Source: Streptomyces sp. R302
GTDB lineage: Bacteria > Actinomycetota > Actinomycetes > Streptomycetales > Streptomycetaceae
Assembly (NCBI RefSeq): GCF_012927245.1
Contig: NZ_JABBGE010000001.1
Coordinates: 959,513-1,023,512 of the forward strand
Direction: 5' to 3'
Length of the DNA: 64,000 nucleotides
Shown here: in pieces, positions 7,273 through 15,542 of the stretch
How positions within the stretch are numbered: position 1 is the first letter of the stretch
How the letters are laid out: each line of letters opens with the position of its first letter
The notes under the pieces: generated by a model
Database searches by the model: none
What the model was told of the DNA's origin: nothing
Seen by the model: only the letters and a program-made list of their open reading frames with translations
Program-made: the position numbers and the translations under genes

Positions 7273-8709
7273 TCACTGGGAGCCGCGGAACTCCGCGCCC
7301 TCCACGATCAGCCCGGCCACCAGCGCGCCCGACATGCCCGCGTGGGCGAGCCCGCCCCCCGGGTGCGACCAGCCGCCCGCGAGGTACAGGCCCGGGACGG
7401 GGGAGAGGTTCGCCGCCGGCAGCCAGGCCCCGCTGGCGTCCGCCAGCGCCGGGCCCGGGACCTCGGCGGCACCGGTGGCGGCCCGGACGTCCTCCGGCGT
7501 GCGGACGTGCTGCCACAGCAGCCGCTCCGCGAGCCCCGGCACCGCCCGCTCGGCCGCCTCGACCATCCGGTCAGGAAGAGCCGTCCCGGCCATCCGGTCG
7601 GCGAAGGGCTCCCCGTCCTGCCCGGGGGAGGTCCGCACGGTCGCCGTGACCGTCACCGACTCGTAGGCGCCGTCCGGACGCAGCGCCGGGTCGTCTGGCC
7701 GCAGCACGGTCACGGTCGGACGCCCGCCCTCCGCGTGCACGACGGTCCGGTGGACCGCCCCCGCCTCCCGGGAGCCGCGCAGGGCCAGACAGACCGTCAC
7801 CCGGCTCGTCCCGATCCCCTGCCGGCGCGGCGGCACCTGATCGAGGGGGAGCGCCGGCACCGGGGCCCCGGAGACCACGTGGTCGGCCTCGACGGTCTCG
7901 CCACCGGACAGCCGGACACCCACCGCCCGCCCGTCCTTCTCCAGGACCTCCTCCACGCGCGCGTCGAAGACGAACTCCACCCGCCGCTCCCGGCAGCGCT
8001 CGTACACCGCGTCCGCGAGCGCCCGGATCCCGCCCGCCACGTACCAGCTGCCGAAGGTCTGCTCCATGTACGGCAGGACGGCGGCGGACGCCGGGGCGGT
8101 CGCCGCCGGGAAGCCGTACGCCTCCGCGTACGAGTCCAGGAGCGCGACCAGCCGGGGGTTGCGCAGCTCCCGCTCGCCGACCTGGGCCAGCGTCCGCGTC
8201 GGACGGCGCAGCAGCCCGGCCTTGAGCGCCGGGTACGGCTCCCGGGCGAGCGCCTTCGGATCGGCGGGCTGCGGCTCCTCCAGGAGCGGACGGCGGGTCC
8301 GGTCCCACGCCTCGCGGGCCCGCACCAGGAAATCCCCCCAGCGCTCGCCCGCGCCCGCGCCGAGCGCCGCGTCCAGGGCGGCGACCGTGCCGGCCCGGGA
8401 GGCGTTCGGCAGGTCCACGCGCGTGCCGTCGGCGAAGACGTGCCGGGCGGCCGGATCGACCTGGCTCAGCCCGACGCACTCCTCCAGCGGCCGCTTCCCC
8501 GTCTTCACGAAGAGATCGCGGTAGACCGCCGGCAGGTGCAGAAGCCCGGGGCCGGTGTCGAACGCGAAGCCGTCGCGCTCGAAGCGGCCCACCGCCCCGC
8601 CGTACGTCGACGTCCGCTCGTACACCGTCACCGCGTGTCCGGCGACCGCGAGCCGGGCCGCCGCCGCCATGGCGCCGAGACCCGCGCCGATCACCACAAT
8701 CCGTCCCAT
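7273..8709 (-). CDS. Phytoene desaturase-family FAD oxidoreductase
   Basis: 478 aa. The N-terminus IVVIGAGLGAMAAAARLA is the FAD-binding Rossmann motif (GxGxxG), followed by VYERTSTYGG and FAFDTGPGLLHLP as in CrtI/CrtN desaturases and related carotenoid or polyisoprenoid oxidoreductases. The C-terminal GLYLAGGWSHPGGGLAHAGMSG closes the FAD site. No carotenoid genes such as phytoene synthase are nearby, so the substrate cannot be assigned; this is one of the stand-alone CrtI-like proteins common in actinomycetes. It converges with the Tyr/Gln-rich protein gene and is followed upstream, on the same strand and 10 bp away, by the DUF4126 gene, suggesting a two-gene operon. Confidence 0.88.
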   Translation of the reverse strand: MGRIVVIGAGLGAMAAAARLAVAGHAVTVYERTSTYGGAVGRFERDGFAFDTGPGLLHLPAVYRDLFVKTGKRPLEECVGLSQVDPAARHVFADGTRVDLPNASRAGTVAALDAALGAGAGERWGDFLVRAREAWDRTRRPLLEEPQPADPKALAREPYPALKAGLLRRPTRTLAQVGERELRNPRLVALLDSYAEAYGFPAATAPASAAVLPYMEQTFGSWYVAGGIRALADAVYERCRERRVEFVFDARVEEVLEKDGRAVGVRLSGGETVEADHVVSGAPVPALPLDQVPPRRQGIGTSRVTVCLALRGSREAGAVHRTVVHAEGGRPTVTVLRPDDPALRPDGAYESVTVTATVRTSPGQDGEPFADRMAGTALPDRMVEAAERAVPGLAERLLWQHVRTPEDVRAATGAAEVPGPALADASGAWLPAANLSPVPGLYLAGGWSHPGGGLAHAGMSGALVAGLIVEGAEFRGSQ

Positions 8710-8719
8710 GTCAGGGACC

Positions 8720-9364
8720 CTATCGGCCCCCGCCGACAGACCGGTCCGCAGGTGGGCCGCCCTCCGCCGCCGCCAGCCTGTGCTCCTCGCGGCGCTGCGC
8801 CCGGCGGCGCAGGAACCGCCGGATCCGGGACGCCAGGAAGACCAGCAGCCAGACGCCGAGCGCCAGCAGCACGGCGGCGATCACCGCCGCCGCCACCGGA
8901 TGGAATATCGCGAAGGTGATGACGCCGGCGACCGCGAGGTCCTCGCCCGTGCTGATCGCGATGTTGGAGAACGGCTCCGGGGAGGTGTTCACCGCCATCC
9001 GCGTCCCCGCCTTGACCAGATGACTCATCAGCGCCGTCGACCCGCCGATCGCCCCCGCCGCCAGCTCCGGCAGCGAGCCGCTCTCACCGGCCAGCAGGGC
9101 GGCCACCACGGCACCCGCGACCGGCCGGACCACCGTGTGGACCGAATCCCACACGTTGTCCACGTACGGCACCTTGTCCGCGACCGCCTCGATGAGGAAC
9201 AGCACGCCGGCCGCGATCAGGACGTCCGTGCGCTGCAGCGCCTCGGGCACCTCGTCGGTGAGCCCCGTCGCGCCGAAGACACCGAGCAGCAGGACCACCG
9301 CGTAGGCGTTGATCCCGCTCGCCCAGCCGCTCGTGAAGACCAGGGGGAGTACGGACATGCTCAT
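8720..9364 (-). CDS. DUF4126-family membrane protein
   Basis: 214 aa. Predicted membrane segments lie around residues 4-32, 48-65, 85-105 and 145-185. It contains GWASGINAYAVVLLLGVFG, a Gly-rich mid-section (GAIGGSTALMSHLVKAGTR) and the NTSPEPFSNI...EDLAV segment seen in DUF4126 proteins, then a highly basic tail (RIRRFLRRRAQRR). Function unknown. Two in-frame ATGs, 9364 and 9358, are equally possible; no strong ribosome site is visible for either. A longer open frame extends upstream but covers palindromic non-coding sequence. Confidence 0.82.
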   Translation of the reverse strand: MSMSVLPLVFTSGWASGINAYAVVLLLGVFGATGLTDEVPEALQRTDVLIAAGVLFLIEAVADKVPYVDNVWDSVHTVVRPVAGAVVAALLAGESGSLPELAAGAIGGSTALMSHLVKAGTRMAVNTSPEPFSNIAISTGEDLAVAGVITFAIFHPVAAAVIAAVLLALGVWLLVFLASRIRRFLRRRAQRREEHRLAAAEGGPPADRSVGGGR

Positions 9365-9637: not shown

Positions 9638-9643
9638 TTGCGT

Positions 9644-9740
9644 GGATCCAATCTCCGGGATCCAATCTCCGGGATCCGGGATCCGGGAGATTGGATTCAA
9701 TGTCCCGGATCCCGGACGTTGGATATCGGATCCTGGATCC
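9644..9740. repeat. Cluster of direct and inverted GGATCC-based repeats
   Basis: GGATCCAATCTCCG is present twice in direct tandem (9644-9657 and 9658-9671), followed by two GGATCCG units, an inverted copy GGAGATTGGATTCA (9686-9699), and further GGATCC/TCCCGGATCC variants to 9740. The inverted copies can form a hairpin of about 15 bp. It lies immediately after the stop codon of the TetR gene. Confidence 0.8.
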
Positions 9741-9743
9741 GAT

Positions 9744-10355
9744 TCAGCGGCCTCCGCCCACGCGCCCGTGCAGCAGCAGGGACAGCGCCGCGTGGACGTC
9801 GTCCAGGGAGCGCTCGCTCTGGAAGGCCTTCCAGTCCAGGGCGGCGACGAGGACCATGCCGACCAGGGCCGCCGCCGTGAGCTGGACGTCGATCTCGTCG
9901 CTGAGTTCGCCCGCCTCGACACCGTCGCGCAGGACGCCCTCGACGACGGCGACCGCCTCCTGGCGGACGACCAGGAGGGTGGAGTTCCAGGCGCGGTTGG
10001 TACGCCAGAGCTCGGCCACGTACAGCTGGGTGAAGGCGGGGTAGCGGTCGATGAAGACGAGGCCGGCGCGGATCATCGCGTCCAGCGCGGCGACCCGGGT
10101 GCCGCCGCTCGCCGCCGTCTCCTCGGCCGCCGTCCGCAGGGAGGCGGTGAGGAGGGAGACGCCGTGGCGCAGCAGCTCCTCGAAGAGCTCGGTCTTGCTC
10201 TTGAAGTTGTAGTAGACCGTGCCCTTGGCCACCCCGGCCCGCTCGGCGATCTCGTCGACCGTCGTGGCCGAGAAGCCCTGCTCGGCGATGAGGGTGACGG
10301 CCGCCTCGTAGAGCTTGGCGCGGGTGGCCTGGCGGCGGGTGCTGCTGCTGTCCAT
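9744..10355 (-). CDS. TetR/AcrR-family transcriptional regulator
   Basis: 203 aa. The N-terminal TetR helix-turn-helix spans about residues 10-58: RAKLYEAAVTLIAEQGFSAT, then TVDEIAERAGVAKGTVYYNF and KSKTELFEELL. The C-terminal all-helical half is the ligand-binding/dimer domain. I take the ATG giving MDSSSTRRQ. It follows the YhgE/Pip gene by 29 bp on the same strand, so it is the last gene of ATPase-YhgE-TetR. A TetR-like palindrome upstream of the ATPase gene (13404-13429) is the obvious candidate target, implying autoregulation of the operon. Confidence 0.93.
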   Translation of the reverse strand: MDSSSTRRQATRAKLYEAAVTLIAEQGFSATTVDEIAERAGVAKGTVYYNFKSKTELFEELLRHGVSLLTASLRTAAEETAASGGTRVAALDAMIRAGLVFIDRYPAFTQLYVAELWRTNRAWNSTLLVVRQEAVAVVEGVLRDGVEAGELSDEIDVQLTAAALVGMVLVAALDWKAFQSERSLDDVHAALSLLLHGRVGGGR

Positions 10356-10384
10356 GGGGTCGATTCTCACAGAGGCCGGGCCGG

Positions 10385-12529
10385 TCACAGCGACAGCTCG
10401 GGGTGGAGCCGGTCCAGCGTCCACACCTGCTTGCGGCGCGCGGTGACCGCGGTCAGGGCGAGCGCGCCCAGGGTGAAGGCGGCGAGGACGGCGACGGCCT
10501 CCCAGACGGGGGCGAGCCCGCCGCCGGAGATGAGCCGGCGCAGCGCCTCGACCACGTGGGTCATCGGCAGGAAGGGGTGGACGGCGTTGAAGAAGCCCGG
10601 ACTGGTCTGCACCGGGTAGGTGCCGCCCGCCGAGGTCAGCTGGACCATGAGGAGGGCGAGGACCAGGATCCTTCCGGCCGCGCCGAAGCGGGCGTTGAGC
10701 CACTGGATGATCGCGGCGAAGCAGCAGGTCACGAGGGCGAGGAAGCCGATCGTGCCGGCCGCCCTGGCCATCTCCAGGCCGAGGCCCCAGTGCAGGACGG
10801 AGAGGAGCGCGCCGACCTGGAGGACGCCGATCGCCGCCACCGGGAACCAGCCGGCCAGCGCGATCCGCCAGGCGGAGGCGCCCGCGGCGAGGGCCCGCCG
10901 GTTCATCGGCTGGATGATCATGTAGGCGACCATCGCGCCGACCCAGAGGGAGAGCGGGATGAAGTACGGGGCGAAGCCCGTGCCGTAGTTCGGCGCCTTG
11001 TGGAGCGACTGGGAGGCCAGCTTGACCGGGTCGGCCATGACCTCCGTGCGCCGGTCGCGCTCCTCCTTGTCGTAGTCCGGGATCTGGTCGACGCCGTCCT
11101 TGAGGCCGGTGGCGAGCGAGCCGGAGCCGTCGGCGAGCTTGAACATGCCGCCGTCGAGGTCGCCGGCGCCCTTCTTCAGCTTGCCGACGCCGGTGTCCAG
11201 GCTGACCGAGCCCGCGCGGGCGCCGGAGACGCCGGTGTGCAGCTGCGCGGCGCCGTCGGCGACCTTCTTCGCGCCCTTGTTGAGCTCGTTGATCTCGCGG
11301 ATGGCGTCCGCGACGTCCTTGTCCAGGTGCGGGGCGCGGGCGGCCAGCTCGTCGGCCTGCTTCTTCAGCTTCTTCAGCCGCTCGTCGAGCGTCTTCAGGT
11401 CGCCGTTGTTGCCCTTGGTCAGCTCGTGCACGTCGTCCGCGACGGTCGCGACGTCCCCGGCGTTGGTCGACGCCTCCTTCAGGGCGGCGCAGAACTCCTT
11501 GTTGTCCGGGAGGGCGAACCCCTCGGGCAGGGTCACGCCCTCGGGCAGTTCGAACAGCGGGGTGGTGCCGGGCTTCGCACAGGACTCGCGGTGCAGCCGG
11601 GAGAACGTCTCGTCCGCCTTGTGGGCGGCGGTGCGCAGCTTCGGGGCGCGGCGGACCAGGTCCTCCAGGTCGTTGCGGGCGGCGGTGGCCGAGTCGGAGA
11701 CCAGCTTGGCGGTGTCGCGGATGGACGTGCCGTTGTTCGCCAGGTACGGGCGGACCTTGTCGGCGGTGCCGTTCACCTTGTCGGCGAGCGCCTGGGTGCC
11801 GTTCGCGACCTGCCGCGTACCGGTCTGGACGTCCTTGGATCCCTTGTCCAGTTTCTTCAGGCCGGCGGCGAGGTCGCCGCTGCCGGTCTTGGCGTCGGCG
11901 AGGCCGTCCGAGAGGTCCTTGGATCCCTTCTTGGCCTTGTCCACGCCCTTCTTCAGGTCGGCGGCGCCCTTGGCGGCCTCGGCGGTGGCCTCGTGGATGT
12001 CGGAGAAGGAGATGAAGATCTTGTCGAGGAAGGTCCGGGAGGACTTGGTGGAGGCGGCGGTGCGCACCTCGGAGAAGACCGTCCGCGAGATCTGGCCGAC
12101 GATGTAGTTGTTGGAGTCGTTCGTCCGGACCTTCAGGGCGCCGGTCTCGGGGGAGTCCCCGGAGCTCGACGCGATCCGCTCGCTGAAGTCGCCGGGCACG
12201 GTCAGGGACAGGTAGTACCGGCCGTCCTCGACGCCCTCGCGCGCCTCGGCGTCGCTCACCCGGTGCCACTCGAAGGTCCTGCTGTCGAGCAGTCCCTCGG
12301 TGATGTCCTCGCCGGCGGTGATCCGCTTGCCGTCGGCGGTGGCGCCCCGGTCCTCGTTGACCAGGGCGACGGGCAGCCGGTCGAGCCTGCTGTACGGGTC
12401 CCAGAACGAGTACAGGTACAGGGCGCCGTACAGCAGCGGCAGCAGCAGGACCGCGACGAGCGCGGCGCGCGGCAGCTTCCCCCTGCCGAAGCGCCTCAGC
12501 TCAAGCGCGGCCAGTTTCGGCGAGCGCAT
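10385..12529 (-). CDS. YhgE/Pip-family membrane protein
   Basis: 714 aa. One N-terminal membrane segment (about residues 20-42) precedes the diagnostic YhgE/Pip region (YSFWDPYSRLDRLPVALVNE). A long extracytoplasmic helical region (about 170-500) follows, rich in repeated Lys-Gly-(A/S)-x-x-L heptad-like units (KKGVDKAKKGSKDLSDGL and similar). Finally come about six membrane spans (about 515-705) of ABC-2 permease type. Family members include phage infection protein and type VII-secretion-linked or exporter-like proteins. The ATG used overlaps the upstream ATPase gene by 29 nt, indicating coupling. The ATPase partner is degenerate, so whether this is an ATP-driven exporter is unclear. Confidence 0.88.
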   Translation of the reverse strand: MRSPKLAALELRRFGRGKLPRAALVAVLLLPLLYGALYLYSFWDPYSRLDRLPVALVNEDRGATADGKRITAGEDITEGLLDSRTFEWHRVSDAEAREGVEDGRYYLSLTVPGDFSERIASSSGDSPETGALKVRTNDSNNYIVGQISRTVFSEVRTAASTKSSRTFLDKIFISFSDIHEATAEAAKGAADLKKGVDKAKKGSKDLSDGLADAKTGSGDLAAGLKKLDKGSKDVQTGTRQVANGTQALADKVNGTADKVRPYLANNGTSIRDTAKLVSDSATAARNDLEDLVRRAPKLRTAAHKADETFSRLHRESCAKPGTTPLFELPEGVTLPEGFALPDNKEFCAALKEASTNAGDVATVADDVHELTKGNNGDLKTLDERLKKLKKQADELAARAPHLDKDVADAIREINELNKGAKKVADGAAQLHTGVSGARAGSVSLDTGVGKLKKGAGDLDGGMFKLADGSGSLATGLKDGVDQIPDYDKEERDRRTEVMADPVKLASQSLHKAPNYGTGFAPYFIPLSLWVGAMVAYMIIQPMNRRALAAGASAWRIALAGWFPVAAIGVLQVGALLSVLHWGLGLEMARAAGTIGFLALVTCCFAAIIQWLNARFGAAGRILVLALLMVQLTSAGGTYPVQTSPGFFNAVHPFLPMTHVVEALRRLISGGGLAPVWEAVAVLAAFTLGALALTAVTARRKQVWTLDRLHPELSL

Positions 12530-13379
12530 CGTCCGCCCCCTCCTCGGTGGTGTCGTCGTCTTCGGCGGAGCCGCCGGCACCGTCTCCGGCGGTGTCGACG
12601 GCGGTGTCCTCCGCGCCGTCCTCGGCCGTGCTCTTCGCGTCCGGGTCCGCCGCGGCGGGCGCCGCGACCGTGGTGATCCGCAGGGCGCCGGCCGGGGCCT
12701 CGCTGCAGACGGCGAGGACGGTGGTGCCGGCGTCGGCCACCGTGCGCAGCAGCGCCCAGGCCTCGGCCCGGTCCGCGTCCGACAGCTTCAGGTCCGTGTC
12801 GTCCACGCCGAGCAGCCGGGGGCGGCCGATCAGGGCCAGCGCGATGGACAGCCGCAGCGCCTCCAGGCGCTCCAGGTCCCGTACGGAGGTCCGGTCGCCC
12901 TTCGGCAGGGCGGCGAGATCGAGCCCGGCGGCCGCGAGGGCCTCGTCGATCCGGGCCCGGGCCTCGGCGGCCCGGGTGCCGGGGCGGCGGAGCAGGGCGC
13001 GGACCGAGCCGTCGAACCGGTGCTGGAGCAGCGCCCGCTCACGCAGGTGCTCGGCGACCGTGAGCGACGGGTCGAGCTCGCTCACGCCGGGGACCTGGCC
13101 GAGCGCGGCGATCCGGCGCACTGCGGCCATCCGGCGCGGCAGCGGCAGCCCGCCGACCTCGGCGGTGCCCTCCTGGGTCTTCATCCGGCCGGCGAGCGCG
13201 AGCAGCAGGCAGGTGCGGCCGGTGCCGGACGGGCCTTCGAGCGCCACCAGGGACCCGGCCCCGGCGCGGAAGGACACGTCCCGGAAGACCCAGCCGCGGG
13301 GGCCCTTGAGCCCGAGCCCCTCGACGACGAGCTCGGCCCCCTCCGGAGACGGTCGTGTGGTCAGGTCGTCGGATCCCAT
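12501..13379 (-). CDS. Degenerate ABC-type ATP-binding protein
   Basis: 292 aa. The overall layout is an ABC nucleotide-binding domain: beta-strand LVVEGLGLKGPRGWVFRDVSF, P-loop region at residues 49-56, Q-loop-like GQVPGVSELDPSLTVAEHL, and a Walker B-like strand PRLLGVDD. Key residues differ. The P-loop is GPSGTGRT, with Arg55 in place of the nucleotide-binding Lys. The LSGGQ signature is replaced by DLERLEALRL (about 168-177), and Walker B ends in Asp-Asp (193-194) without the catalytic Glu. The last 50 residues are an acidic low-complexity tail. It precedes and overlaps the YhgE/Pip gene and probably binds it, but may not hydrolyse ATP. Confidence 0.82.
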   Translation of the reverse strand: MGSDDLTTRPSPEGAELVVEGLGLKGPRGWVFRDVSFRAGAGSLVALEGPSGTGRTCLLLALAGRMKTQEGTAEVGGLPLPRRMAAVRRIAALGQVPGVSELDPSLTVAEHLRERALLQHRFDGSVRALLRRPGTRAAEARARIDEALAAAGLDLAALPKGDRTSVRDLERLEALRLSIALALIGRPRLLGVDDTDLKLSDADRAEAWALLRTVADAGTTVLAVCSEAPAGALRITTVAAPAAADPDAKSTAEDGAEDTAVDTAGDGAGGSAEDDDTTEEGADDALAETGRA

Positions 13380-13403
13380 GGATCCACCCCCCGCTTCCCC
13401 ACT

Positions 13404-13429
13404 TTTTAGACTGACTGGTCAGTCCAAAA
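13404..13429. promoter_or_regulatory. TetR-like operator palindrome
   Basis: GACTGACTGGTCAGTC (13409-13424) has 7-bp perfect arms around TG, flanked by TTTT on the left and AAAA on the right. It sits 30 bp upstream of the ATPase start in the spacer between that minus-strand operon and the plus-strand HEPN gene. Spacing and sequence resemble TetR-family operators, and a TetR gene ends the operon. Confidence 0.7.
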
Positions 13430-13544: not shown

Positions 13545-14018
13545 ATGGCCAGTCCTTTCGCAGCAGCCGACGTCCACCCCGTGTCCCGCAGGACCGGGGC
13601 CCCGCCCGCCGCCCTCGACCTGCTCGCCAAGGCCCGCGCCGGAATCGACGAGGCCGCGGCCCTCGACCGCCCCCACGAGAGGTACGCCACCGCGCACCTC
13701 GCCGCCCTGCGCGCCGCGGCCGCCGTCCTCGCCGCCCGCGCCCGCCCCGTGCCCCGGACCCGTCGGCGCCAGGCCATAAGGAGCGCCTGGGAGCTGCTGC
13801 CGCAGCTCGCCCCCGAGCTCACCGAATGGAGCGCCCTCTTCGCCGCGGGCGCCCCGCGCCGGGCCCTCGCCGAGGCGGGCGTCGCCGCCGCCGCGAGCGC
13901 GCGCGAGGCCGACGACCTCGTCAGGGACGCCGCCCACTTCCTGCGCCTGGTCGAGCGGCTGCTCGTGCTCCAGCCGGTGCTGCCCCGACAGCCCCCGGCG
14001 GACGGCGCCGCCGGTTGA
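13545..14018 (+). CDS. SAV_6107-type HEPN-domain protein
   Basis: 157 aa, all-helical. The sequence ALDLLAKARAGIDEAA, HERYATAHLAALRAAAAVLA and SAWELLPQLAPELTEWSALF matches what I know of the Streptomyces SAV_6107 HEPN family. HEPN domains often act as RNases or nucleotide-binding scaffolds through an R-x4-6-H motif. Here RYATAH (R-x4-H, near residue 43) lies in the first half of the domain, and RDAAH in the last helix has only three residues between. Catalytic activity is therefore uncertain. The ATG has an ACAGGAGG ribosome site. A methyltransferase gene follows 66 bp downstream. Confidence 0.82.
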   Translation: MASPFAAADVHPVSRRTGAPPAALDLLAKARAGIDEAAALDRPHERYATAHLAALRAAAAVLAARARPVPRTRRRQAIRSAWELLPQLAPELTEWSALFAAGAPRRALAEAGVAAAASAREADDLVRDAAHFLRLVERLLVLQPVLPRQPPADGAAG

Positions 14019-14084
14019 TCCGTGCGGGAACGCCGAGGCCATAGGGTGGGGAGGTCCGACCCCGTCACCGAGGAGTCAAGAGCC

Positions 14085-14873
14085 GTGCCGGACCCTTCCG
14101 CTGTCTTCGGCCGTGAGGCGTCGTCGCGCCCGTCGCGCGCCTCCCTGCGCACCGCCGTCGTCCGGGACGTCCTGGAGGACGCCCTCGACCGCCGGGTCGC
14201 CGGCACCGGACGGGCCGTCCTGGACGTCCTGGACACCGGCGGCGGCTCCGGCAACTTCGCGGTGCCGCTGGCCCGCCTCGGCCACCGCGTCACCGTCGTC
14301 GACCCCAGCCCCAACGCGCTCTTCGCGCTGGAGCGCCGCGCCGCCGAGGCCGGGGTCGCCGAGCTGGTGACCGGCGTCCAGGGCGACGTCCGCGGGCTCT
14401 TCGACGTGGTCGAGCGCGGCGCCTACGACGCGGTCCTCTGCCACGGCGTCCTGGAGTACGTGGACGACCCGGCCGAAGGCGTACGGAACACGGCGACCGC
14501 GCTCCGTCCCGGCGGGGCGCTCAGCCTCCTCGGCGCCGGGCTCGGCGGCGCGGTCCTCGCCCGCGCCCTCGCCGGACACTTCACCGAGGCACGGACCGCG
14601 CTCGGCGACCCCGACGGGCGCTGGGGCGCCGGCGACCCCGTGCCCCGGCGGTTCACCGCCGAGCAGCTCACCGGCCTGGCCGAGGAGGCCGGCCTCTCCG
14701 TGAGCGCCGTCCACGGTGTGCGGATCTTCGCCGACCTGGTCCCCGGCGTCCTCGTCGACACCGAGCCCGGTGCCGCCGAGGCGCTGCTGAAGCTGGAGGC
14801 CGCGGCGGCCGAGCTGGCCGCCTTCCACGCCGTCGCCACCCAGCTCCACGTGCTCGCCGAGAAGCCCGCCTGA
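14085..14873 (+). CDS. SAM-dependent class I methyltransferase
   Basis: 262 aa from the preferred GTG (VPDPSAVFGRE), preceded by GAGGAG. A start 63 nt further upstream is in frame but has no ribosome site. Motif I is VLDTGGGSGNFAVPLA at about residue 49, motif II HRVTVVDPSP, and DAVLCHGVLEYVDDP is the motif IV/post region, so the SAM-binding Rossmann fold is intact. The C-terminal part (GVRIFADLVPGV...) resembles SmtA/CmoM-like tRNA or small-molecule methyltransferases, but the substrate cannot be read from the sequence. Confidence 0.86.
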   Translation: MPDPSAVFGREASSRPSRASLRTAVVRDVLEDALDRRVAGTGRAVLDVLDTGGGSGNFAVPLARLGHRVTVVDPSPNALFALERRAAEAGVAELVTGVQGDVRGLFDVVERGAYDAVLCHGVLEYVDDPAEGVRNTATALRPGGALSLLGAGLGGAVLARALAGHFTEARTALGDPDGRWGAGDPVPRRFTAEQLTGLAEEAGLSVSAVHGVRIFADLVPGVLVDTEPGAAEALLKLEAAAAELAAFHAVATQLHVLAEKPA

Positions 14874-14887
14874 TCGCGTGGAACTCA

Positions 14888-14921
14888 GGGGCCCCGTCAC
14901 CCGTTCGGAGGTGTGGGCCCC
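14888..14921. terminator. Stem-loop after methyltransferase gene
   Basis: GGGGCCC (from 14888) pairs with GGGCCCC (to 14921) around an 18-20 nt loop, 15 bp after the methyltransferase stop. There is no T-tract; many Streptomyces terminators lack one. Confidence 0.5.
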
Positions 14922-15146
14922 GCTCGGCCGCAGGCCGCCCCATATGCGGCTTCGCGCCGTATGATCGAGGGAAGCCATCCGGCATGACGGACGGGCGGCT
15001 GGGGAATCAACGCCTCACCAACCGAACCGCGTGGCGGCCCGGATGGGTTGATCGGCATTGAGGGCGGGTTTCACGGGGGCGATTCCCTGCCTATCCTGAA
15101 AGGGCCGCAACCGGTCGCCCCCGCGACCGACGACTAGGAGGACTCC

Positions 15147-15542
15147 GTGCCGCTCTCGGAGCACGAGCAGCGAATGCTCGAGCAGATGGAGCGAGCGCTG
15201 TACGCCGAAGACCCCAAGTTCGCGACAGCGCTCGAGGGAAGCGGGCTGCGCACGTACACCCGGCGACGGGTGTATCAGGCAGTCGCCGGCTTCCTGGTGG
15301 GTATCGCGCTCCTCATGGCCGGAATGGTCGCCCAGCAGATCTGGATCAGCGTGGTGGGATTCCTCGTCATGCTGGGCTGCGCGGTTCTGGCGGTCACCGG
15401 ATGGCGCAAGGCGCCGAAGCCGGGTGAGCAGGCGCAGCAGGCGGGCCGGGGCCGGCAGGGCCGGGCGCGACGCTCGATGATGGACCGGATCGAGGCGCGG
15501 TGGCAGCGGCGCCGTGACGAGCAGCAGGGCGGCGGCCACTGA
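15147..15542 (+). CDS. DUF3040-family membrane protein
   Basis: 131 aa small membrane protein. It begins with the DUF3040 signature PLSEHEQRMLEQMERALYAEDPKFA, followed by a paired hydrophobic region (about residues 44-88) predicted to form two membrane helices, and a basic Gln/Arg-rich cytoplasmic tail. The GTG start has CTAGGAGGA 8 nt upstream. Function unknown. The family is confined to actinobacteria and commonly sits beside the division cluster. A strong terminator follows 40 bp after the stop. Confidence 0.9.
   Translation: MPLSEHEQRMLEQMERALYAEDPKFATALEGSGLRTYTRRRVYQAVAGFLVGIALLMAGMVAQQIWISVVGFLVMLGCAVLAVTGWRKAPKPGEQAQQAGRGRQGRARRSMMDRIEARWQRRRDEQQGGGH

Follow-up and report, generated by a model that had tools for sequence, protein, structure and literature searches.

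Locus and operon organisation

We analysed a 64,000-nucleotide (nt) stretch of the genome of Streptomyces sp. R302 (hereafter the window; G000:C1:959513-1023512, genome size 7.95 Mb), whose minus strand encodes an operon made up of an ATP-binding cassette (ABC)-like gene, a YhgE/Pip gene and a TetR gene, in that order, with a palindrome at its head. A first-pass annotation of the same DNA had described a degenerate ATPase, a YhgE/Pip protein and a TetR regulator with its own operator, and open reading frames (ORFs) and domain matches place all of these parts where it had put them, with the three genes on the minus strand:

12501..13379, minus strand: ABC-cassette-like pseudo-ATPase gene (the cassette), 292 amino acids, ATG start; ORF, Pfam ABC_tran and ABC-cassette fold matches
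10385..12529, minus strand: YhgE/Pip ABC-2-type membrane protein gene, 714 amino acids; TIGR03061, TIGR03062 and ABC2_membrane_3 matches
9744..10355, minus strand: TetR-family repressor gene, 203 amino acids; TetR_N match
12536..12543, minus strand: probable ribosome site of yhgE, GGAGGGGG, inside the cassette gene, read from the sequence
13404..13429, no strand assigned: operator-like palindrome, core GACTGACTGGTCAGTC at 13409-13424, 24 nt upstream of the cassette start codon

The overlap of the cassette gene with the large YhgE/Pip gene measures 29 nt, and this length recurs in 30 of 49 measured Streptomycetaceae loci. Another eight have 14 nt; among the remaining 11, the figure is 4-5 nt, a short gap separates the genes, or the match is partial and its value says little (L072, L076, L079).

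Motifs and fold of the cassette

The cassette protein scores 48.6 bits against Pfam ABC_tran (cut-off 25). Its motif positions are listed below, with residue counts from 87 Streptomycetaceae loci (82 distinct coding sequences, window included):

13212..13235, minus strand: Walker A, GPSGTGRT; Arg55 (codon 13215-13217) where Lys is expected, Arg in 87/87 loci
13086..13088, minus strand: Q-loop position; Gly98, not Gln (Gly 81, Pro 5, His 1)
12861..12875, minus strand: signature position; LERLE (residues 169-173), not LSGGQ
12798..12803, minus strand: Walker B; Asp193 kept (87/87), Asp194 at the place of the catalytic Glu (Asp 83, Ala 3, Ser 1)
12702..12704, minus strand: switch position; Ser226, not His (no His in 87 loci)

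The loss of the Walker A Lys, the LSGGQ signature and the Walker B Glu, which the first-pass annotation had reported, is evident in Arg55, LERLE and Asp194 (the Walker B region reads VDD where DE is expected, at 193-194), and two losses beyond its list are added here, Q-loop Gln to Gly98 and switch His to Ser226. Canonical cassettes in the same profile alignment show the Walker A Lys, DEP in Walker B and a recognisable signature wherever these are covered, with the switch His in most and Gln at that position in two, so the odd residues do not stem from misalignment. Since the Q-loop Gln, LSGGQ, the catalytic Glu and the switch His are lost, the protein should not run an ATP-sandwich power stroke, and we infer that hydrolysis has been lost. 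Judged on its sequence, it appears to combine the profile and fold of a working ABC ATPase with the absence of the Walker A Lys, Q-loop, signature, Glu and His; it would be an ABC nucleotide-binding domain in which the fold, the P-loop Gly, an Arg for Lys, the Thr and the Walker B Asp are kept.

The AlphaFold2 model of the cassette is moderate (mean predicted local distance difference test, pLDDT, 65.9; predicted template modelling score, pTM, 0.65), with a good helical part and residues 240-292 below 50. Among the 50 Foldseek matches listed, all are chains of ABC systems, and VIA aligned the model to 1f3o with Z 17.5 (root-mean-square deviation 3.3 over 206 residues); the scores lie close together and name no nearest ABC family. 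The acidic tail noted in the first-pass annotation is real (median 24% Asp or Glu), but it varies from 9 to 139 residues across loci, has pLDDT below 50 and deserves little weight. Its conserved end, EEGxxDAxAExGRA, appears to reflect the yhgE ribosome site and the gene overlap, translated in another frame.

Conservation in Streptomycetaceae

Cassette matches occur in 163 of 199 same-genus genomes (E<=1e-25) and in 55 of 101 family genomes (E<=1e-20), covering 16 of 17 genera; a pattern-limited scan for named loci with clear orthologues gave at least 10, all Streptomyces, among the matches listed. The alignment comprises tblastn matches whose best segment reached at least 65 bits, excluding the paralogues L002, L003 and L014; codon counts also exclude the partial L013, leaving 87 of 88 loci. 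These are only part of the matches from the genus and family genome searches, and a few come from the same genome twice.

Alignment at the P-loop, signature and Walker B showed the altered residues to be common to all 87 loci, none of which is canonical. Arg55 is universal and written with three codons (CGC 59, CGG 20, CGT 8), whereas the Q-loop Gln, the switch His and an intact LSGGQ are each found in 0/87. The first 240 residues contain 14 invariant positions, including G49, R55, T56 and D193. Because phosphate and metal contact positions are among the best kept of the cassette, a ligand is probably still held, which suggests that the Streptomycetaceae protein could bind nucleotide as a static or sensing ligand. 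The ratio of non-synonymous to synonymous substitution (dN/dS; Nei-Gojobori script) ranges from 0.11 to 1.53 over 3315 pairs with a median of 0.40, and is saturated and carries little weight.

Decay of the gene, which the first-pass annotation had named as an outcome that would refute it, can be rejected for Streptomycetaceae, since the motif changes are kept in 87/87 loci together with invariant core positions. It could also be argued that the cassette is a decaying remnant retained only as carrier of the yhgE start at its 3' end, through translational coupling; the 29-nt overlap with its embedded ribosome site, P-loop erosion in several lineages and the only moderately low, saturated dN/dS would fit. 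However, conservation lies in the cassette core, distant from the overlap, the gene persists in 163 of the 199 genomes, and the same domain is fused to MmpL (see below), which makes this explanation hardly credible.

Pairing of the cassette with YhgE

The window membrane protein is a full member of the YhgE/Pip family by both curated models, one for each half (TIGR03061, 190.3 bits, cut-off 96.15; TIGR03062, 237.4 bits, cut-off 102.2). It also matches ABC2_membrane_3 (97.4 bits, cut-off 31.6), has a long heptad-repeat region (TIGR03057) and shows an N-terminal similarity to EsaA (55.6 bits) that falls below the cut-off of 122. The structure predicted for it is of low quality (mean pLDDT 59.3 and pTM 0.30, with most of the membrane part under 50), and a PDB sequence search returned eight weak matches (best E 0.16), coiled-coil and designed proteins among others. 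Most described YhgE/Pip members are single proteins. The PIP family (TC 9.B.74) is reported to have homologues in the ABC-2 superfamily (PMC3924187).

Across the 199 same-genus genomes (E<=1e-25), 163 encode both cassette and YhgE, 35 neither, and one, G010, YhgE only; in G010 a degenerate cassette lies upstream of YhgE, its P-loop unrecognisable in the aligned part. A looser search of 14 cassette-free genomes found YhgE N-terminal domains in four (G010, plus G014, G035 and G045, where they are short or weak), with no adjoining cassette found at the G035 and G045 loci. In a class-wide sample, 58 of 197 genomes had YhgE N-terminal domains. Long YhgE genes at 42 loci from eight other families of the class are directly preceded by a cassette ORF in 41 cases, the cassette reaching up to 3 nt into the YhgE profile match or stopping as much as 122 nt short of it; for L146, L151 and L198, recognition of the cassette required a second profile, derived from six divergent members. 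Short YhgE/DUF3533-type loci of the class had a cassette in 0/9 cases (L173 has a canonical one about 3 kb off, on the opposite strand). An over-cut-off YhgE match (G426:C1:2876112) and weaker matches in G398:C1 and G014 are not among the fetched loci.

YhgE is also found on plasmids (82 records), where the window cassette itself gave no match at E<=1e-15. Plasmids of Tsukamurella tyrosinosolvens and Arthrobacter sp. ERGS1:01 each carry a cassette without a recognisable P-loop beside YhgE, the former annotated as a hypothetical protein and the latter (WP_192841599.1) as an ABC transporter ATP-binding protein.

The earlier view of the cassette as a partner of YhgE gains support from this co-occurrence and adjacency, and the genomic pattern indicates that the conserved pseudo-ATPase is a dedicated YhgE partner in this lineage. 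We suggest that it forms a complex with YhgE as its cytoplasmic subunit, co-translated via the conserved gene overlap.

A degenerate cassette could instead pair with a canonical one encoded elsewhere, as an asymmetric ABC half. The precedent is ABCG5/G8, for which PMC7756269 describes a degenerate site with a Walker A Lys to Arg change and signature changes; the likeness extends to a non-hydrolysing site kept by selection, and the genome holds 31 further cassette matches at E<=0.001. In ABCG5/G8, however, the canonical site of the same dimer works, whereas the window operon shows none and has lost five motifs in one domain. No canonical cassette adjoins the operon in the window by ORF list and domain scans, none was flagged on the same strand and within the operon in the class loci, the window cassette lacks key residues of both half-sites, and P-loop-less versions persist. 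We regard such pairing as quite improbable.

YhgE might also serve chiefly as a structural fibre or anchor that spans the envelope, as with EsaA or YueB, with the cassette as a cytoplasmic cap and no role in transport. YhgE has been linked to the phage receptor YueB, and the heptad-repeat region, the sub-threshold EsaA similarity and the restriction of the cassette to long rather than short YhgE proteins are all consistent with this. Two features make it very improbable: profile scores assign the C-terminal membrane domain to the ABC-2 transporters, and the fusion partner in nine genomes belongs to a pump family with both of its Asp-Tyr pairs kept.

Some same-genus genomes have four to six YhgE matches, five of which (G036, G048, G137, G175 and G194) also have two cassette matches; these may be extra copies or split matches. 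Eight loci (L225-L230, L234 and L162) carry tandem YhgE pairs and no cassette, an arrangement in which a YhgE heterodimer might stand in for a single YhgE plus cassette.

P-loop variation and phylogeny

Outside Streptomycetaceae, the Walker A position of YhgE-linked cassettes is Arg in many, and otherwise Lys, His (L147, L154, L156, L161), Gln (L134, L135, L137, L200) or unrecognisable, with several lineages keeping a cassette that has no P-loop beside YhgE. LSGGQ and the catalytic Glu are missing from all of the rows that cover them, and a His stands at or beside the switch position in two (L147, L233). A tandem duplication at L149 (3901-11080) has the order cassette-YhgE-TetR-cassette-YhgE, with the Walker A Arg in both cassettes.

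A careful tree of 65 rows, with P-loop columns removed, placed 53 YhgE-linked cassettes apart from 12 canonical ones with support 100/99. This split recurred in 100% of 200 bootstrap trees, although the canonical set is small and the deep forks have no settled order, and in a quick tree of 69 rows. Lys at Walker A falls at three separate places on the tree, which does not decide between an ancestral Lys and an ancestral Arg. The quick tree excludes L016, L018 and rows shorter than 110 residues; the careful tree excludes L016, L018, L135, L140, L141, L157, L168 and L169 (the last six near relatives) and rows shorter than 105 residues, and includes four of the nine MmpL-fused cassettes, two of them on long branches.

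These data bear on whether the operon encodes a slow but genuine ATP-driven ABC-2 exporter, in which the cassette hydrolyses ATP with unusual residues and drives YhgE. The invariant P-loop Gly, Arg and Thr and Walker B Asp, the ABC-2-type membrane partner and the retention of the Walker A Lys at seven loci (L160, L171, L199 and L216-L219) could be read in this way, and Glu-to-Asp degenerate sites are described as common among ABC proteins (PMC7756269). Nevertheless, each of the 87 loci lacks the signature, the Q-loop Gln and the switch His at once, and lineages that retain the gene without any P-loop are difficult to reconcile with an ATP motor. We consider an exporter of this kind unlikely.

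Fusions to MmpL pumps

At nine loci in nine genomes from two families (L160, L191-L197 and L199), the cassette forms the C-terminal part of an MmpL ORF (936 to 1286 codons, stop to stop) and YhgE follows directly. Pfam MMPL scores four of the fusions at 258-304 bits (cut-off 20.5), and the other five were recognised by a profile made from those four. Pfam ABC_tran scores one of four fusions tested, L160, at 56.9 bits; the other fused cassettes are seen by the family profile alone (L199, E 6e-49; the rest, 4e-15 to 5e-8). The P-loop Lys is present in L160 and L199, and the P-loop is lost in the remaining fusions.

Asp-Tyr pairs at the transmembrane centre relay protons in MmpL3. Both pairs are present in 9/9 fused pumps, so a proton motor seems to have been kept where the ATP motor is gone. 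By comparison across genomes, the fusions are the strongest pointer to the power source of YhgE that we have, and they suggest a link to MmpL transporters of the resistance-nodulation-division (RND) superfamily. In Streptomyces, by contrast, the cassette is neither fused to an MmpL nor encoded near one. The MmpL of the window genome closest to the four fused pumps compared, L211 (43-49% identical), ends in a WWLPKWLDRALPNVDVEGE-type stretch, the kind that immediately precedes the cassette in the fused pumps. The leading candidate for an MmpL associated with YhgE in this genome is G000:C3:58973-63441. In M. avium, YhgE is encoded upstream of Mce genes (PMC12584985).

The TetR regulator and its probable operator

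The TetR protein scores 71.6 bits against TetR_N (cut-off 24). Its best NCBIfam match is NF053878 (FadR), at 70.4 bits against a cut-off of 200, and it falls outside that model. The palindrome, TTTTAGACTGAC-TG-GTCAGTCCAAAA, has arms of 12 nt each (13404-13415 and 13418-13429) that are 92% complementary. Chance alone would supply 1.2 copies per window of a bare 16-mer with up to three mismatches; the palindrome is nevertheless meaningful because its core is perfect and conserved.

A site within two mismatches of the 14 fixed bases of GACTGACNNGTCAGTC is present in 79 of the 87 Streptomycetaceae loci; the other eight (L074-L081) have 4 to 6 mismatches, and the P0003 search found no relative there. 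All 41 of the Streptomycetaceae loci with a window-type TetR in view have the site. In 79 further loci from other families and another class, the operator, counted anywhere in the fetched stretch at up to one mismatch, occurs in 14 of 14 with a TetR homologue (E<=1e-30) and in four of 65 without one (Fisher p 2.5e-12, relatedness uncorrected). Among the four without one, L168 breaks off where its contig ends, the TetR of L216 falls marginally short of the threshold (1.2e-30), L201 lacks such a TetR within the stretch, and the match at L141 is distant, with a single mismatch. At L201 (3800-4887, an Arthrobacter plasmid) the exact operator core precedes cassette and YhgE, and the regulator may be elsewhere. 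L220-L222, discussed below, link the switch to YhgE even without a cassette.

The window genome contains only one exact ACTGACNNGTCAGT site. Allowing one mismatch gives two places, against five for a reversed control, so the additional place can be put down to chance. From this site pattern, the TetR protein and its operator look like a locally acting autoregulator, and the self-contained module anticipated by the first-pass annotation is borne out by their linkage in the 41 and 14 loci. The FadR-like TetR, encoded by the last gene, would bind the palindrome at the operon head and release it on meeting an effector, which is likely to be an amphiphile such as an acyl compound. An acyl-type effector is our first guess because the nearest curated family is Bacillus FadR and the palindrome of Thermus FadR is somewhat similar. 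The latter site, given as TTRNACYNRGTNYAA in PMC5597230, shares TTG...CAA flanks with the window operator, which is nonetheless longer and differently spaced, has a single exact site in the genome and is paired with a TetR far below the FadR cut-off.

Neighbouring genes and repeats

The operon neighbours (window 7273-9361 and 13545-15539) are partly kept in 50 Streptomycetaceae loci with flanks of unequal length, where HEPN_SAV_6107 is found in 33, a methyltransferase in 32, DUF3040 in 30, a FAD oxidoreductase in 29 and DUF4126 in 23. Directly 3' of the TetR gene, at 9641-9740, there are direct and inverted repeats rich in GGATCC/GGGATCC (by eye), perhaps a terminator or a repeat element.

Proposed function

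Based on these comparisons, we propose that the operon encodes a membrane assembly with its repressor, in which the pseudo-ATPase is probably the cytoplasmic coupling or sensing subunit of YhgE. The earlier suggestion of a putative nucleotide sensor or structural partner rather than a motor fits the contacts that are invariant in Streptomycetaceae and the P-loop-less relatives kept with YhgE. The lasting role of the cassette across lineages is probably structural, with the domain pairing or gating YhgE and docking it to another component, which could be a proton-gradient-driven MmpL (RND) pump, as the nine natural fusions suggest. More tentatively, and with considerable doubt, we offer a possible extension to a hybrid machine, in which YhgE, of ABC-2 fold, no longer has an ATP motor and a proton-driven MmpL operates it through the dead cassette as docking adaptor; in Streptomyces, the free cassette would dock an MmpL encoded elsewhere under a lipid-sensing TetR, and the cargo could be a lipid or amphiphile.

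Several observations weigh against the main proposal, a pseudo-ATPase acting as the subunit of YhgE. The P-loop region is the weaker half of the cassette model, and the co-occurrence counts come from related genomes and are not independent tests. The seven loci with a Walker A Lys include cassettes that may bind or turn over ATP normally. A profile from four of the fusions detected no MmpL in the window, and MmpL/RND matches at several places in the window genome include none near the operon. L162, the sole exception among the 42 long-YhgE loci, has two tandem YhgE genes and no cassette. In other classes of the phylum, a cassette was found in eight of 20 YhgE loci and not found in 12, comprising seven tandem YhgE pairs and five single YhgE genes (one at a contig end); L220-L222 are single YhgE-TetR loci with the same operator (up to one mismatch) and no recognisable cassette. 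Outside the phylum, 0/5 YhgE loci (Deinococcus, Allomeiothermus, Leuconostoc, Roseburia, Parageobacillus) have one. Taken across these genomes, the cassette is not indispensable to YhgE, and its presence beside the window YhgE sets this operon apart from those members of the family.

Implications for the YhgE/Pip family

We interpret the system, from its sequence signatures, as an ABC-2-type system with a retired ATP motor. Its new elements are a cassette family that spans the lineage and loses the P-loop by degrees, a deep connection between TetR and operator, and naturally occurring fusions to MmpL. Among the open-licence PubMed Central (PMC) papers listed in our searches, most of them scanned by title and opening of the abstract, we found no description of the pairing of a dead cassette with YhgE, although it may be in print elsewhere, and nothing on the MmpL-cassette fusion or on the operator and TetR.

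YhgE/Pip proteins occur across Gram-positive bacteria, and the same papers give neither their cargo nor their power source. Enterococcus faecalis isolates obtained under ginkgolic acid or licochalcone A selection carry changes in YhgE genes among their mutations (PMC8754111, PMC9634178). A dedicated, lineage-wide dead cassette suggests that YhgE either arose from or combined with an ABC transporter that gave up its ATP motor, and the MmpL fusions point to a testable substitute motor. The conserved operator and TetR offer a handle on the inducer, and hence on the cargo. Annotations of 'ABC transporter ATP-binding protein' beside YhgE, such as that of WP_192841599.1, may not denote ATPases.

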